DNA from: a virus
Virus record (IMG/VR): IMGVR_UViG_3300034407_000782
Span: 1-24,453 of that record
Reading direction: 5' to 3' (one strand)
Length of the DNA stretch: 24,453 bases
Positions 5,749 through 20,769 of this stretch are shown here, piece by piece. Under the pieces are notes generated by a model, which saw only the letters and a program-made list of their open reading frames with translations, did no database searches and had not been told where the DNA came from. The position numbers were made by a program, and so were the translations under genes. Each line of letters starts with the position of its first letter. Within the stretch, counting starts at the first letter, position 1.

Positions 5749-5777
5749 TATTTTCCCTTTGTTGTAATTATCTAATT

Positions 5778-5806
5778 AATATAAGTTAATATAAATAATA
5801 TGTCAA
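5778..5806 (-). promoter_or_regulatory. Leftward promoter for the SSB/nuclease operon
   Basis: Read on the minus strand there is a perfect -35 TTGACA (5806-5801), a 17-base spacer and -10 TATATT (5783-5778). Transcription would start about 25 bases before the SSB ATG, leaving room for its ribosome site. The spacer contains a TTAAC element also present in other promoters of the window. Confidence 0.7.
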
Positions 5807-5819
5807 CAACATATTGACA
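5801..5819. promoter_or_regulatory. 19-bp palindromic operator formed by two back-to-back -35 boxes
   Basis: TGTCAA, seven bases, TTGACA: a perfect 6-bp inverted repeat. Each arm is also the -35 hexamer of one divergent promoter. A dimeric regulator or two polymerases would compete for it. The Cro-like gene next to it is the obvious candidate binder (inference). Confidence 0.6.
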
Positions 5820-5848: not shown

Positions 5849-6046
5849 ATGAGTTACGAATTAGCTATAGAAAGAAAACAAGAAATCATTACTAAATATG
5901 GTGGTGGTAAAAATTTATCTAGGATATTAAAAATATCTCACCCTGCTGTTTCTAAGTGGGAAGTGATCCCAGAATTAAGAGCATTTCAAATCTCTAAATT
6001 AGGTGATTACACAGTAGATTATATTAGACCAGATTTAAGTTCTTAG
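5849..6046 (+). CDS. Cro/YdaS-like helix-turn-helix regulator
   Basis: A protein of 65 residues. Residues about 11-40 (QEIITKYGGGKNLSRILKISHPAVSKW) form the Cro/YdaS helix-turn-helix, with A33-V-S-K-W at the recognition helix. The C-terminal LRAFQISKLGDYTVDYIRPDL is the dimerisation segment typical of lambda-Cro-like proteins. The job is DNA-binding repression, most likely of the divergent promoters immediately upstream. There is no cI-like partner, integrase or excisionase visible, so this is better read as a lytic timing switch than as a lysogeny control. No Shine-Dalgarno sequence precedes the ATG. Confidence 0.78.
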   Translation: MSYELAIERKQEIITKYGGGKNLSRILKISHPAVSKWEVIPELRAFQISKLGDYTVDYIRPDLSS

Positions 6047-6076
6047 CAAACCCACAGTACATAAGGATTGCAGGTG

Positions 6077-6137
6077 TATAGCATTGCTATAGCATTGCCA
6101 TAGCATAGCTTTAACACAAGTATAGCACCATGCTATA
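6077..6137. repeat. 11-bp-phased iterons and palindrome, candidate replication origin
   Basis: TATAGCATTGC occurs twice in exact tandem (6077-6087, 6088-6098), a third copy has two changes (CATAGCATAGC, 6099-6109), and after exactly one further 11-base interval a TATAGC at 6121 starts the palindrome TATAGC-ACCAT-GCTATA (6121-6137). All elements share an 11-base phase, about one helical turn, so a bound protein would sit on one face. The array lies between the Cro-like gene and the replication genes, as origins do in many phages. Function is inferred. Confidence 0.6.
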
Positions 6138-6146
6138 GTTTTGCTA

Positions 6147-6272
6147 ATGGCAAAAGCATCCCCTTCATCTTCATCTTCACCTTCATCTTCAACTACACCT
6201 TCACTACAAGATATAACAGTAGTAGCAACTAATTTAAAAAAAATTGTTGACAATATATTTTGGTTAACCTAA
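6147..6272 (+). CDS. 41-residue Ser/Pro-rich ORF (uncertain)
   Basis: The ORF starts MAKASPSSSSSPSSSTTPSL and continues QDITVVATNLKKIVDNIFWLT, so a low-complexity Ser/Pro head precedes a helical tail. The head is encoded by an imperfect CTTCAT/CTTCAC hexanucleotide repeat, which could equally be a pyrimidine tract belonging to the origin. There is no ribosome site, and the -35 and most of the next promoter lie inside its 3' end. The protein-like tail favours a real gene slightly. Confidence 0.35.
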   Translation: MAKASPSSSSSPSSSTTPSLQDITVVATNLKKIVDNIFWLT

Positions 6273-6275
6273 ATT
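6247..6275 (+). promoter_or_regulatory. Promoter of the replication operon, predicted leaderless
   Basis: A perfect -35 TTGACA (6247-6252), 17-base spacer containing the palindrome GGTTAACC, and a weak -10 TAAATT (6270-6275). The ATG of the DUF1376 gene begins exactly 7 bases later and has no ribosome site, repeating the layout seen at the Cro-like gene. Confidence 0.6.
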
Positions 6276-6282
6276 AACAACT

Positions 6283-6722: not shown

Positions 6723-6873
6723 AAAAAGAAAACCAACAGATAAAATACTTGGGTGGTCAATAAAGGTTTACTTTAGCACAGGTAAAGTTGAAGAACTTAA
6801 TTTATGTCCAGAAGAAACTGCAAAGATGATTGATAGTTATATTAAAGAAACAATTAATAGGAAGTATTTCTAA
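6712..6873 (+). CDS. 53-residue hypothetical protein
   Basis: The protein starts MSSRKRKPTDKILGWSIKVY, then FSTGKVEELNLCPEETAKMIDSYIKETINRKYF. A basic head, a short beta pair and a C-terminal helix are suggested. It overlaps the primase ATG by one base (TAATG), so it is translationally coupled to the replication genes. No family is recognised. Confidence 0.55.
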   Translation: MSSRKRKPTDKILGWSIKVYFSTGKVEELNLCPEETAKMIDSYIKETINRKYF

Positions 6874-7667
6874 TGCAGTACAAAGATTTTTTATTTCCTT
6901 TTGGAGAACACCATAGTTTTCAAACTTTTTGTGATAAAGGTAAAAATAAAAAAATAATAAAGCAGTTGCATGGTACAATAGATCAACACATTCAAGAACT
7001 TACTGCACTAAATAAAAAGGGTGCAGGTGTTTACTTTACAGTAAATCAAACTGACTTATTTGGTAGAACAACAAAGAACATTACTAAAGTAAGGGCAGTA
7101 TTCTGTGATTTTGATGGTACACCTATGCCAGATAATTTTAATATACCACCACATTTTATTATAAATACTAGTCCTAATAAGTTTCATACCTATTGGCTAG
7201 TAGAAGATATGCCATTAGAAAGTTTTACACTTTATCAACAAGCATTAGCAAGTAAGTTTGGTTCAGATAGAGCAGTAAAAGATTTACCAAGAATAATGAG
7301 GGTTGCAGGTTTTTGGCACAATAAAAAGAAACCATACCCTGTCAAGATAGTTAAGCAAAATATTATGACACCATACACAATGGAAGATATTAGAGATGGA
7401 CTAGGACTAGAAAGACCAAAGAAAAAAATAATTAAATATAACCCTACTAATTTAGTAAGGAATAAAGACTTTCAAGTTAAGGGTGTTGGTTTAGGTGGTA
7501 GGCATGAATATCTTGTAAAGATGTTAGTAGCTATGAGAATGAGAGGGGAGAGTTATGAATATGCAAAAGATCAAGTATTGACATTTGCTAACAGATGCAA
7601 CCCCCCAGAAAGTTATAGTGAAGTTATGTTTCAACTAAATGATATATGGAATAGATATGGAACTTAG
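6873..7667 (+). CDS. DNA primase, archaeo-eukaryotic (RepB/PrimPol-like) type
   Basis: A protein of 264 residues. The metal-binding pair is D79-F-D81 in RAVFCDFDGTP, followed by N/SPNKFHTYWLV with the nucleotide-binding H105, and D137-L-P-R140-IMRVAGFWHNK, in the order expected for RepB-like AEP primases. The C-terminal 65 residues (GGRHEYLVKMLVAMRMRGESYEYA...) look like a PriCT helical primase C-terminal domain. It would make RNA or DNA primers on SSB-coated template, with the neighbouring helicase unwinding. It is smaller than fused primase-helicase proteins of other phages. The helicase here is a separate gene overlapping its end. Confidence 0.82.
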   Translation: MQYKDFLFPFGEHHSFQTFCDKGKNKKIIKQLHGTIDQHIQELTALNKKGAGVYFTVNQTDLFGRTTKNITKVRAVFCDFDGTPMPDNFNIPPHFIINTSPNKFHTYWLVEDMPLESFTLYQQALASKFGSDRAVKDLPRIMRVAGFWHNKKKPYPVKIVKQNIMTPYTMEDIRDGLGLERPKKKIIKYNPTNLVRNKDFQVKGVGLGGRHEYLVKMLVAMRMRGESYEYAKDQVLTFANRCNPPESYSEVMFQLNDIWNRYGT

Positions 7668-9138
7668 AGAGTATCAAGAGTTTGCAATAGAAAATGTCAA
7701 GCAAGAATTTGCTAAAGGTAACAAAAGAGTTTTATTAGTTGCACCAACAGGTAGTGGTAAAACAGTTATTGCTAGTAGAATGATTGAGAAAACTGAACAG
7801 AAAAGAAAAGCTAGTTTATTTGTTGCACATAGAAGAGAACTAGTGAAACAATGCTCAACAAAGCTACATCAGTTTGGTATAAATGCAGGTGTAATTATGG
7901 CAGGCATTACTAATGCATGGCACTTTGATACACAAATTGCAAGCATACAAACTTTTATATCAAGAAAAGATGATGATGATTTTAATAAACCAAAAGCTGA
8001 TTTACTAATTATAGATGAAGCACATAGGTCAACAAGTAAATCATTTAGAAGACTATTAGATGAATATCCAGATGCTTATGTTGTTGGTTTAACTGCAACC
8101 CCATTAAGAAATGATGCAAGTGGTTTGGGTGATATATATGATACACTAGTAGAAGTTAGTGATATAAAAACATTAACAAGTCAAGGTTTTTTAGTTCCTT
8201 GCAAAGTATATGCACCTACAATACCAGATTTAAAAGGTGTTGCCACAGTAAGGGGTGATTATGATGCAAGAGAATTAGATAAGAGAATGAATAAAGTCAA
8301 ATTAGTTGGTGATTTAGTAGAGCATTGGATTAAGTTTGCACTTGATAGACCAACAGTAGTATTTGCTAGTAGTATTGCTCACAGTAAATATATATGCAAA
8401 ATATTTAATCAGAATGGTATACCAAGTGGACACATAGATAGTGAGATGCCAGATATAGAAAGAGAAAGACAACTAAAGATGATGCAACAAGATAAGATAA
8501 GAGTCTTGTGTAATTGCCAGATACTTACAGAAGGTTGGGATATGCCCAAGATATCTTGTGTAGTATTAGCTAGACCGACTAAAAGTGTAGGGTTATACTT
8601 ACAAATGGTGGGTAGAAGTCTAAGACCATTTAAAGATAAGAAAGATACAATGATTATAGATCACTCTGGAGCAGTATATCAAAATGGTTTTCCAGATGAA
8701 AAGAGAGAATGGAAACTAGAGTATAGTAAAGAAGATAAAAAGAAACTAAAAGAACCAAAAGAAATAATTAAGCAACCATTCACTTGTGTAAATTGTGATT
8801 TTGTTTACAAACCTACAAAAGAAAACCCAGAATGTCCTAATTGTAGTTTTGTTCCAACAAGGAAAGAAGTGCAATTATTAATTAAACAAGGTAGATTACA
8901 AGAAGTAAAGAAACCAAAAGAGAATATTAAAACAGAGGATAAGAAAAGTTTTTATGCCCAACTATTGTTTATTGGCAGACAAAAAGGGTATAAAGAAGGG
9001 TGGAGTAGTTATGTATTTAGAGAAAAATTTCATCACTTTCCTCATTCTAAAATGGTTTTACCAAAACCACCGACACCAGAAGTTATAAACTTTCTGAAAC
9101 ATTTACAAATAAAAAAAGCAAAGGGATTAAGATTATGA
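7657..9138 (+). CDS. SF2 DNA helicase (UvsW/RAD25-like) with C-terminal zinc ribbon
   Basis: A protein of 493 residues from the ATG at 7657 (MELREYQEFAIENV, preceded by GGA); a start at 7639 would add six residues. Motifs in order: Q-type REYQ, Walker A APTGSGKT (about 29-36), DEAH box IIDEAHRS (about 118-125), motif III GLTATPLR, and motif VI QMVGRSLRP (about 316-324). A four-cysteine ribbon (CVNCDF...CPNCSF) follows at about 377-396. It would unwind DNA or remodel forks using ATP, similar to UvsW-type helicases. It lies between primase and recombination genes and overlaps the primase stop by 11 bases. Confidence 0.92.
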   Translation: MELREYQEFAIENVKQEFAKGNKRVLLVAPTGSGKTVIASRMIEKTEQKRKASLFVAHRRELVKQCSTKLHQFGINAGVIMAGITNAWHFDTQIASIQTFISRKDDDDFNKPKADLLIIDEAHRSTSKSFRRLLDEYPDAYVVGLTATPLRNDASGLGDIYDTLVEVSDIKTLTSQGFLVPCKVYAPTIPDLKGVATVRGDYDARELDKRMNKVKLVGDLVEHWIKFALDRPTVVFASSIAHSKYICKIFNQNGIPSGHIDSEMPDIERERQLKMMQQDKIRVLCNCQILTEGWDMPKISCVVLARPTKSVGLYLQMVGRSLRPFKDKKDTMIIDHSGAVYQNGFPDEKREWKLEYSKEDKKKLKEPKEIIKQPFTCVNCDFVYKPTKENPECPNCSFVPTRKEVQLLIKQGRLQEVKKPKENIKTEDKKSFYAQLLFIGRQKGYKEGWSSYVFREKFHHFPHSKMVLPKPPTPEVINFLKHLQIKKAKGLRL

Positions 9139-11141: not shown

Positions 11142-11672
11142 TTATTTTATTTTATTTTTCATTGATATTTTTTCAATATAAAAAACTTGACTCATTGATA
11201 AATCATTTTTATCTAATAATCCATATTTACGGCTAAACACAACAACACAACTAGGAAAAGGCGCTGAATTTTTAGCATTACTAAACTTTAATCTACCCTT
11301 GATGTATCGTATTTGACCATAAATACAGTAGTCATGCCAATACTTTGTATCAGTTCTAGTTGGTATCAACATCACAACTGTACAACCTTTTAAACTTTCC
11401 TCGTATGCTTTTTTTACAAACTCACCAATTTTTGAATAAGGTGGATTGCACCAGATAAAAGGTTCAAAATTATTTTCATCTTTTAACAACATAGACCAAT
11501 CATAATTTAAACTATTTTGGTCTTTAGTTGTGTAAAATGTGTTTACTTTTGTATTCTCATGAGTGGCACAGATATCATAATCAAATTCAAATTCATTGTT
11601 TAATCTATCATATAAATGCTGTGGCGTTTCCCATTCATCAGAATTTTTTGAAAATAAAACTTTATCTATCAT
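11142..11672 (-). CDS. dam: Phage DNA N6-adenine methyltransferase (Dam, PF05869 type)
   Basis: A protein of 176 residues, normal family length. Diagnostic motifs: DEWETPQ (12-18) near the N-terminus, the catalytic NPPY (76-79) in IWCNPPYSKIG, IPTRTDTKYWHD (about 103-114), RLKFSNAKNSAPFPSCVVVF (127-146), where FPSC is typical. It transfers a methyl group from S-adenosylmethionine to adenine N6. In phages this usually protects DNA from host restriction, and no restriction enzyme is seen in the window. It is the last gene of a leftward run of small hypothetical genes and is followed by a strong terminator. Confidence 0.9.
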   Translation of the reverse strand: MIDKVLFSKNSDEWETPQHLYDRLNNEFEFDYDICATHENTKVNTFYTTKDQNSLNYDWSMLLKDENNFEPFIWCNPPYSKIGEFVKKAYEESLKGCTVVMLIPTRTDTKYWHDYCIYGQIRYIKGRLKFSNAKNSAPFPSCVVVFSRKYGLLDKNDLSMSQVFYIEKISMKNKIK

Positions 11673-13114: not shown

Positions 13115-13537
13115 ATGCAAAATAAAAGGTTGACAAACAGCGAGGAGCTTTTCATAAACTATATCTTACAAGGGTTAAAAACTCCTGATGCAGTAAGAAA
13201 AGCATATCCAGATTGTAAGTACCCTTCACAATATGGATATCAGTTATTAAGAAAGAATTATATAAAAGATCAGATACAACAAAGAAACTTTCAACAATTA
13301 GAATCTGGGGTAAGTATTGCAATAAATAAGCTGATTGAATTAGTAAACGATAAGAAAGCACCTAAATCAGTTCAACTATCAGCTAGTTGTCAATTACTAG
13401 ATAGGAACAATTATAGTGGCACAAGTAAATCTGAGATAGTAAACAAGATAGAAAATCTTAGCGAGGAACAGCTTCAAGTAGAGTTAACAAGCATACTAAA
13501 TCAGTTAGGTATTAATAAAGACTCTATTACACATTAG
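13115..13537 (+). CDS. Terminase small subunit-like DNA-binding protein
   Basis: A protein of 140 residues. The head LTNSEELFINYILQGLKTPDAVRKAYPDCKYPSQYGYQLLRKNYIKDQIQQR in outline has the LTxxExxFxxxYxxGxxxxxAxxxA(Y/G) pattern of small terminases, where it forms the helix-turn-helix that binds the packaging site. The middle (AINKLIELVNDKKAPKSVQLSASCQLLDRNNYS) and the C-terminal helix (LSEEQLQVELTSILNQLG) also fit. It would recognise phage DNA and regulate the large subunit. It lies 760 bases before the large terminase, separated by a noncoding gap and two small genes. Confidence 0.65.
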   Translation: MQNKRLTNSEELFINYILQGLKTPDAVRKAYPDCKYPSQYGYQLLRKNYIKDQIQQRNFQQLESGVSIAINKLIELVNDKKAPKSVQLSASCQLLDRNNYSGTSKSEIVNKIENLSEEQLQVELTSILNQLGINKDSITH

Positions 13538-19765: not shown

Positions 19766-19831
19766 AAAAGTATGATATTATTTTTTATGTATGTATTGCC
19801 CTTATGGATAACAGTACATAAAGTCTAACGA

Positions 19832-19856
19832 CTATAAACGAGGTTTCCCTTTATAG
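19832..19856 (+). promoter_or_regulatory. Hairpin in the scaffold-capsid gap
   Basis: CTATAAA-11-TTTATAG, a perfect 7-bp inverted repeat with GG/CC inside the loop, located about 50 bases before the capsid start. No U-run follows, so it is not a standard terminator. The 140-base gap is otherwise gene-free and has a strong ribosome site AAGGAG before the capsid gene. A processing or regulatory element that separates capsid from scaffold dosage is possible. Confidence 0.4.
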
Positions 19857-19905
19857 GATAAAAACTGCATAAATAATAATATTAATTTTAATAAGGAGAA
19901 CTCAA

Positions 19906-20769
19906 ATGAGTGTTCAAATTACTACAGCTTTTGTAGAACAATATAAAAGCAACGTATTCCATTTGGCACAACAGAAAGGCTCAAGATTAAGAGATGCAGT
20001 TAGAACAGAAACTGTAACAGGTAAATCTCACTTTTTTGAAAGAATTGGTGATACTGCTGCTCTTAAAAGAACATCTAGACATAGCGATACACCTAGAGTT
20101 GATACCCCTCACTCTAGACGTAAAGTTACTATGGATGATTATGATTGGGCTGATCTGATTGACCAAGAGGACAAAGTTAGAATGTTAATTTCCCCACAAT
20201 CCGAGTATGCAATGAGTGGTGCTTGGGCAATGGGTAGAGCAATGGATGATGCAATTATTTCTGCAGCTAGTGGAAATGCTTTCGGTGGTGTATCTGGTGG
20301 TACAACTGTAGCATTACCTTCTGGACAGAAAATTGTTCACGGCTCTGCTGGATTAACTCTAGCAAAATTAATTAGTGCAAAAGAAGTATTAGATGCTGCT
20401 GATACTGACCCAGACGAACCAAGATATATGGTTGTGTCTGCAAAACAGTTAAGCGACCTTTTAGGTAGCACAACTATTACTTCAGCAGATTTTAATTCTG
20501 TTAAAGCACTAGTACAAGGTGAGTTAGATACTTTCTTAGGATTTAACTTTATCAGAAGTGAACGACTAAGCACAGATAGCGATGGAAATCGTTCTGTACT
20601 TGGTTTTTGTCAATCTGCAATAGGTCTTGCACTTGGCAGAGATATTGAAACAAGAATCTCTGAAAGAGCTGACAAGAACTATGCAACACAAGTATTTTTA
20701 TCAATGACAATCGGAGCTACGAGAGTAGAGGACGAAAAAGTTGTAGAAGTTGCTTGTACAGAGTCATAG
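19906..20769 (+). CDS. Major capsid protein
   Basis: A protein of 287 residues. MSVQITTAFVEQYKSNVFHLAQQKGSRLRDAVR, then SHFFERIGDTAALKRTSRHSDTPRVDTPHSRRKVTMDDYDWADLIDQEDKVRMLISPQSEYAMSGAWAMGRAMDDAII in outline, is the phage capsid family PF19821-type, HK97-fold relatives of podovirus coats. It forms the icosahedral shell. A strong ribosome site and a hairpin-containing leader suggest high, separately tuned expression. Positioned between scaffold and decoration-like genes. Confidence 0.88.
   Translation: MSVQITTAFVEQYKSNVFHLAQQKGSRLRDAVRTETVTGKSHFFERIGDTAALKRTSRHSDTPRVDTPHSRRKVTMDDYDWADLIDQEDKVRMLISPQSEYAMSGAWAMGRAMDDAIISAASGNAFGGVSGGTTVALPSGQKIVHGSAGLTLAKLISAKEVLDAADTDPDEPRYMVVSAKQLSDLLGSTTITSADFNSVKALVQGELDTFLGFNFIRSERLSTDSDGNRSVLGFCQSAIGLALGRDIETRISERADKNYATQVFLSMTIGATRVEDEKVVEVACTES

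Follow-up and report, generated by a model that had tools for sequence, protein, structure and literature searches.

The tandem repeats just upstream of the DUF1376 gene in this marine phage are most likely the place where it starts copying its DNA. We analyzed the 24,453-nucleotide (nt) stretch of IMG/VR record IMGVR_UViG_3300034407_000782 (the window). We put at about 0.8 the probability that positions 6077 to 6213 are a replication origin at which the DUF1376 protein binds the iterons and opens the adjoining tract, and at which the phage primase and helicase, or host factors, are loaded. A candidate phage origin beside the replication genes had been proposed from the letters of the window; the proposal is now supported by a layout common to 55 relatives, by the co-occurrence of the element with DUF1376, by similar elements inside other DUF1376 genes, and by the predicted fold of the protein. 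Table 1 gives the features; the element lies, as that sequence-only reading had it, between the Cro-like gene and the DUF1376 and primase genes.

Table 1. Features of the candidate origin and its neighbors (positions in the window)
Feature	Positions	Strand	Description
P22 Cro/YdaS-like regulator	5849–6046	+	PF14549, E 1.9e-12; PF15943, E 3.7e-5
Whole element (array, joint, tract, box)	6077–6213		Just 5′ of the DUF1376 promoter and gene
Iteron array, 11-bp phase	6077–6155	+	Seven units
Iteron units 1 and 2	6077–6087, 6088–6098		TATAGCATTGC, exact tandem
Iteron unit 3	6099–6109		CATAGCATAGC, two changes
Iteron unit 4, degenerate	6110–6120		TTTAACACAAG
Iteron unit 5	6121–6133		13 bases
17-base palindrome	6121–6137	None	TATAGCACCATGCTATA; 7-bp arms, 3-base center; not conserved
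Iteron units 6 and 7	6134–6144, 6145–6155		TATAGTTTTGC; TAATGGCAAAA; 11-base phase continues
Dyad TTTTGC-TAATG-GCAAAA	6139–6155	None	Made by the last two iterons
Joint GCATCCC, array to tract	6156–6162	+	In relatives TATCCC, TATAGCC, or TATAGCT
Tract, seven hexamers CTNCAN	6163–6204	+	Triplets C-(T/A)-N; probable opening/loading site
CAAGATA box	6207–6213	+	End of tract
DUF1376 promoter-like site	6247–6275	+	TTGACA-17-TAAATT
Operator-like dyad	6264–6277	None	TTAACCTAAATTAA; overlaps the DUF1376 promoter; candidate site for Cro, separate from the iterons
DUF1376 protein, 125 aa	6283–6660	+	Winged helix only; PF07120, E 2.1e-8
Primase with RepB-primase-like domain	6873–7667	+	PF16793, E 1.4e-11
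Superfamily 2 helicase	7639–9138	+	PF04851, E 2.1e-34; phrog_16, DNA helicase

The exact tandem 11-mer, the third copy with two changes, the further 11-base interval, and the 17-base palindrome were all present as previously described. The period of about one helical turn extends beyond what had been noticed, since the array continues to position 6155. The palindrome fared less well as a part of the element. Because the 11-base phase runs on past it, the palindrome is simply two neighboring iterons, a 13-base unit and the first bases of its successor; it is incidental and is missing from most relatives. We found 25 iteron matches (≤2 mismatches) across the window, where 11.5 were expected, and 100 shuffles all gave fewer; seven of these matches fall within 6077 to 6144. 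The array thus has the tandem repeats at fixed helical spacing of an iteron-type, initiator-linked origin.

The pyrimidine-rich hexanucleotide repeat reported beside the array turned out to be seven strictly phased CTNCAN hexamers followed by CAAGATA. As a single strand the tract is unstructured, whichever strand is taken, and its + strand is rich in C and poor in G. It is conserved and strand biased but, unlike most unwinding elements, it is not AT rich.

The DUF1376 protein as query retrieved 80 viral loci, and the DNA upstream had the same layout almost throughout; where the tract did not adjoin the DUF1376 gene, an inserted reading frame separated the two, with the tract lying farther upstream. 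A nonredundant set (array likeness ≤85%) contained 55 elements. The layout is kept in all 55, including an isolate, Pelagibacter phage EXVC032P Baldr. The presence of CAAGAT, 0 to 2 bases past the last hexamer, and of the tract in 55 of 55 is partly by construction, because both were in the search pattern; that pattern specified neither the iterons and their phase nor how many hexamers there are. CAAGATA is complete in 53 of the 55, and TTGAC follows the box in 54, usually 8 to 47 bases away. The same 11-mer spacing at this locus, which the sequence-only reading had suggested looking for in relatives, was found: autocorrelation of the 55 arrays was 0.42 at a lag of 11, versus about 0.25 at lags unrelated to the 11-base unit, with further peaks at 22, 33, and the half-steps 5/6 and 16/17. 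The iteron consensus is YATRGCWWTGC. GCYATRGC, the dyad at the iteron junctions, has 52 occurrences versus 1.4 in shuffles. Among 377 hexamers, positions 1, 2, 4, and 5 are C, T, C, and A in 95 to 99%; positions 3 and 6 are free to vary, but G is avoided at position 6. At the end of the array the relatives differ, 27 of the 55 having the last-iteron hairpin and 15 having GCGATTT (one has both); the GCGATTT variants mostly are without the 6-bp stem. A search of bacterial genomes in the GTDB collection gave three matches to the element, which we judged from their sequence to be due to chance.

Because the first search had used the DUF1376 protein, we also scanned with DNA alone. The tract pattern was followed by DUF1376 in all 179 stretches with enough downstream DNA; in the five stretches lacking DUF1376, the sequence ends within 54 to 452 bases. 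A scan of viral contigs with the iterons only gave 80 loci, 73 of which have DUF1376 40 to 632 bp downstream, although these counts overstate independence because the compared phages are partly related. Five of the remaining seven loci are cut by a contig end, and for the other two a DUF1376-type protein is encoded at another place in the record; in one of these, G003, three iterons lie within the DUF1376 gene itself. When the iteron pattern was read backwards, it gave 2 loci versus 80 forwards. A looser iteron scan added 36 records, of which 22, including nearly all the long ones, have DUF1376. In a different phage, L206, four iterons end just 5′ of a gene for a 282-residue DUF1376 protein. 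A small set of 15 control contigs gave a single weak DUF1376 match (22 bits).

The DUF1376 protein had been named as the natural candidate binder, and this near-complete co-occurrence, the in-gene elements described below, and a predicted fold closest to that of RepA_N initiators strengthen the suggestion. The window protein matches PF07120 at 34.9 bits, above the Pfam cutoff of 30.1; a Pfam scan detected DUF1376 only and not RepA_N (PF06970). In PHROGs, the window protein and the relatives are named primosomal proteins. The AlphaFold model is a confident winged helix (pLDDT 88). When it was compared with the PDB by two aligners, RepA_N plasmid initiators, including a Rep-DNA complex, ranked first. 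The top structures (4pql, 4pt7, 5kbj, and 4pta) gave Z scores of 6.7 to 7.8 and rmsd values of 2.3 to 2.8 over 75 to 78 residues, but the likeness is moderate (best Z, 7.8) and unrelated winged helices reach the same range. Foldseek E values for the RepA_N structures were 0.003 to 0.013.

In the 500 bases upstream of more distant, full-length DUF1376 genes, the array is mostly absent; it was found within the genes instead. Iteron-like units occur in the linker, directly past the winged-helix part, in 19 of 40 distant DUF1376 genes versus 3 of 890 control windows taken from elsewhere in the same loci; about half of these genes have no recognizable TATAGC iteron in the linker. The in-gene element lies some 330 to 450 bases past the DUF1376 start. 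In two of these phages (L229 and L248) it reads ATAGTTTTGCCAATGGCAAA...ATAGCTCTT, with two bases different in a third (L234), and is nearly identical to ATAGTTTTGCTAATGGCAAAAGCATCCCCTTC of the window. The window and L229 elements share 25 of 33 bases; the DUF1376 proteins share 39 of 125 residues. In many distant genes the in-gene tract continues as 8 to 16 triplets C-(T/A)-N, which translate as a Ser/Thr/Ala linker. At 15 loci from phages of >50% G+C, TCT and TCA make up 61% of the serine codons in the linker versus 23% elsewhere (P = 0.0003), and therefore selection acts on the DNA itself. That the element lies beside or inside the DUF1376 gene in many unrelated phages, and is kept in relatives, points to DUF1376 as the protein that starts replication and makes it the putative initiator.

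Related elements also occur in other settings. In a second group of phages (G036:13346-13415, G029:5221-5268, and G035:17400-17438), the array occurs with a (CTTCTA)n tract of the opposite polarity and is intergenic, 8 to 10 kb from DUF1376; several members also have iterons inside the DUF1376 gene, making two copies per genome. In a third setting (L207:200-300, L322:1986, L323:4347, and L326:10342), iterons lie between a tRNA-like 3′ end, GGTTCGAGTCCTAGCTAGGGTTCTATAGC, and GGAGTAG repeats; ARAGORN called no tRNA at these ends. A CNTCAC-hexamer element in G001 (19825-19950; L201:1400-1530) is beside the terminase small subunit gene and 3.8 kb from a weak DUF1376-like gene, which counts against the origin reading.

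A Cro-like gene lies upstream in every relative that allowed the check (54 of 54). In the window, the divergent promoter region (5776 to 5809) and the DUF1376 promoter (6244 to 6277) have TTAA-rich dyads in common, which are candidate operators for Cro. In relatives, TTAA-n-TTAA is enriched at these two promoter regions (37 versus 4.7 and 28 versus 6.8 in shuffles) and is not enriched in the array (3 versus 4.0). In neither the window nor L010 did a scan find an intrinsic terminator separating cro from the array. GC skew in the window and in Baldr tracks gene direction and, after correction for this, gave no sign of an origin; it neither supports nor refutes one here. The leftward gene cluster of the window includes a Dam-like adenine methyltransferase gene (11142 to 11672), which was in none of five checked relatives with room for it.

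The most serious rival to the origin reading is that DUF1376 binds the iterons only as an autoregulatory operator or copy-control site, with replication starting somewhere else. In its favor, array and tract directly precede the DUF1376 promoter in the window, and some phages have a second copy of array plus tract about 8 kb from the DUF1376 gene. An operator has no need of a triplet tract, however, and in distant phages the element is in the gene, with the tract under codon-level selection; the genes downstream, moreover, are those for a primase and a helicase. We consider this explanation improbable, but it is the one to which we give the most weight after the origin. Still less probable is that the array is a set of operators for the Cro/YdaS-like regulator. 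The constant presence of Cro upstream would fit, but the motif at the promoter regions is a different one, other phages have the iterons inside the DUF1376 gene, and by eye we saw no Cro-like gene beside the L206 iterons.

The remaining alternatives concern the tract or the whole element. An RNA-level signal in the cro transcript, either a rut-like C-rich, G-poor leader or a nut-like hairpin, would account for the composition and lack of structure of the + strand and for the hairpin before the tract in half of the relatives; with only half having one, we rejected a conserved RNA hairpin. Such a signal is very unlikely because it leaves the 11-bp phasing unexplained, the GCGATTT variants mostly lose the hairpin, tracts of the same kind lie within translated genes of distant phages, and an Rfam search gave no match. 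We give even less credence to selection of the tract as the coding sequence of a small Ser-rich peptide, with the DNA pattern as a by-product. A Ser/Pro frame with an ATG runs into the tract in 37 of the 55 relatives, and the tract of distant phages does encode a linker, but AATAG variants have lost the ATG, GCGATTT variants have it in another frame, and the frames past the tract differ. For the window's group, we rejected a conserved peptide on these grounds. Coding alone also would not need the linker codon choice of the GC-rich phages, which differs sharply from that in the remainder of the genome. An annotated CDS of Baldr (OQ414636.1, 32360-32731; L197:7572-7943) begins inside the element (MANTSPSSS...); its true start is probably an internal ATG (MDYLNF). 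The in-gene tract as a Ser/Thr-rich linker explains the Ser-rich frame annotated there, and the frame at the tract is probably a relic of the linker (compare PMAKNSSSS in L229 with MAKASPSSSS in the window). We regard as equally remote a packaging (pac) site recognized by the small terminase. The related element in G001 adjoins the terminase small subunit gene, whereas in the window that gene (13115 to 13537) is 7 kb off with no array there, and the position of the element is tied to the replication genes.

The replication origin that we favor resembles several known systems in part. Lambda O and SPP1 gp38 have tandem iterons in the initiator gene, between the DNA-binding and C-terminal parts, a placement like that in the distant DUF1376 phages; the initiator family here is different, however, the iteron spacing is shorter, and the window element is upstream of the gene. 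The Rac prophage of E. coli (racR-ydaS-ydaT-ydaU-ydaV) has the same gene order, a regulator and then DUF1376 (YdaU), and has an active origin, oriJ. In ydaU of E. coli K-12 (L372:6472-6563), TGTTCAA repeats at 33, 33, and 12 bp lie directly past the winged-helix part, and the strongest lags are 11 and 33; compared with the window, the iteron sequence is another one and there is no CTN tract.

RepA_N origins (pSK41 and pTZ2162) and that of the Vibrio satellite PLE likewise combine a winged-helix N-terminal initiator domain with repeats that have inverted subrepeats (PMC5703833, PMC7145576). The N-terminal domain of pSK41 RepA_N binds four sites within its own gene, central in rep as are the in-gene elements of the distant DUF1376 phages (PMC5703833), and a RepA_N protein drives replication from the PLE origin (PMC7145576). 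Unlike these proteins, DUF1376 has no PF06970 sequence match, and the repeats in the window are 11-bp iterons spaced by one turn. Descriptions of RepA_N origins include A+T tracts, whereas here the tract is of C-(T/A)-N triplets; in the window's group, the element is outside the gene and the DUF1376 protein has no C-terminal domain.

The order of parts is that of the DnaA boxes, GC-rich joint, and DnaA-trios with a DnaD recognition element, i.e., double-strand sites, a short C-rich joint, and a strand-specific triplet repeat (PMC10201434, PMC10797057). In contrast to that system, the binder that we propose is DUF1376. In 51 of the 55 elements, any DnaA box (TTATCCACA) would have at least two mismatches. 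Nor are the triplets DnaA-trios, 3′-(G/A)AT-5′ (CTA or TTA on the other strand); in the window's group, CTA makes up about a tenth of triplets, and CTT, CAT, CAC, and CAA dominate. In a search of part of the literature, we found no paper that describes this origin or uses the name EXVC032P.

From this anatomy and conservation, the selection on the DNA, and the association with DUF1376, we infer the following mechanism. DUF1376 would bind the 11-bp iterons, which recur at each helical turn, and stack as an oligomer along one face of the DNA. Stacking would open the adjoining tract, which has C-(T/A)-N on one strand and G-(A/T)-N on the other, and the initiator or loading factors would hold one of these strands. 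Loading could then follow, either of the phage primase and helicase, whose genes lie just downstream, or of host factors. The tract is thus the probable opening and loading site; which strand would be held, and by what, is suggested by its likeness to DnaA-trios and the DnaD element (PMC10201434, PMC10797057). Cro probably acts at the separate TTAA dyads. Because the iterons adjoin its promoter, DUF1376 may regulate its own gene as well. The DUF1376 gene of the window's group is cut down to the winged helix, with the element upstream, whereas many other DUF1376 phages have an element of this kind within the putative initiator gene, where it separates the winged-helix part from the C-terminal part.

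A broader hypothesis, for and against which we see about equal weight, is that DUF1376 is a large, unrecognized family of phage initiators. Its portable origin module would be 11-bp iterons leading into a strand-specific C-(T/A)-N tract, DnaA-trio-like but working without DnaA. The module would often be part of the gene, imposing a Ser/Thr-rich linker on the protein, and in the marine pelagiphage relatives it would have moved outside. The origin reading assigns a probable role to a widespread domain of unknown function and provides a sequence recipe for locating origins in many uncultured phages, marine ones included. Baldr, which grows on Pelagibacter HTCC1062, is a cultured phage in which each step is testable. 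The results also suggest that an initiator unrelated to DnaA may make use of a strand-specific triplet tract adjoining its sites, an arrangement known from DnaA origins.
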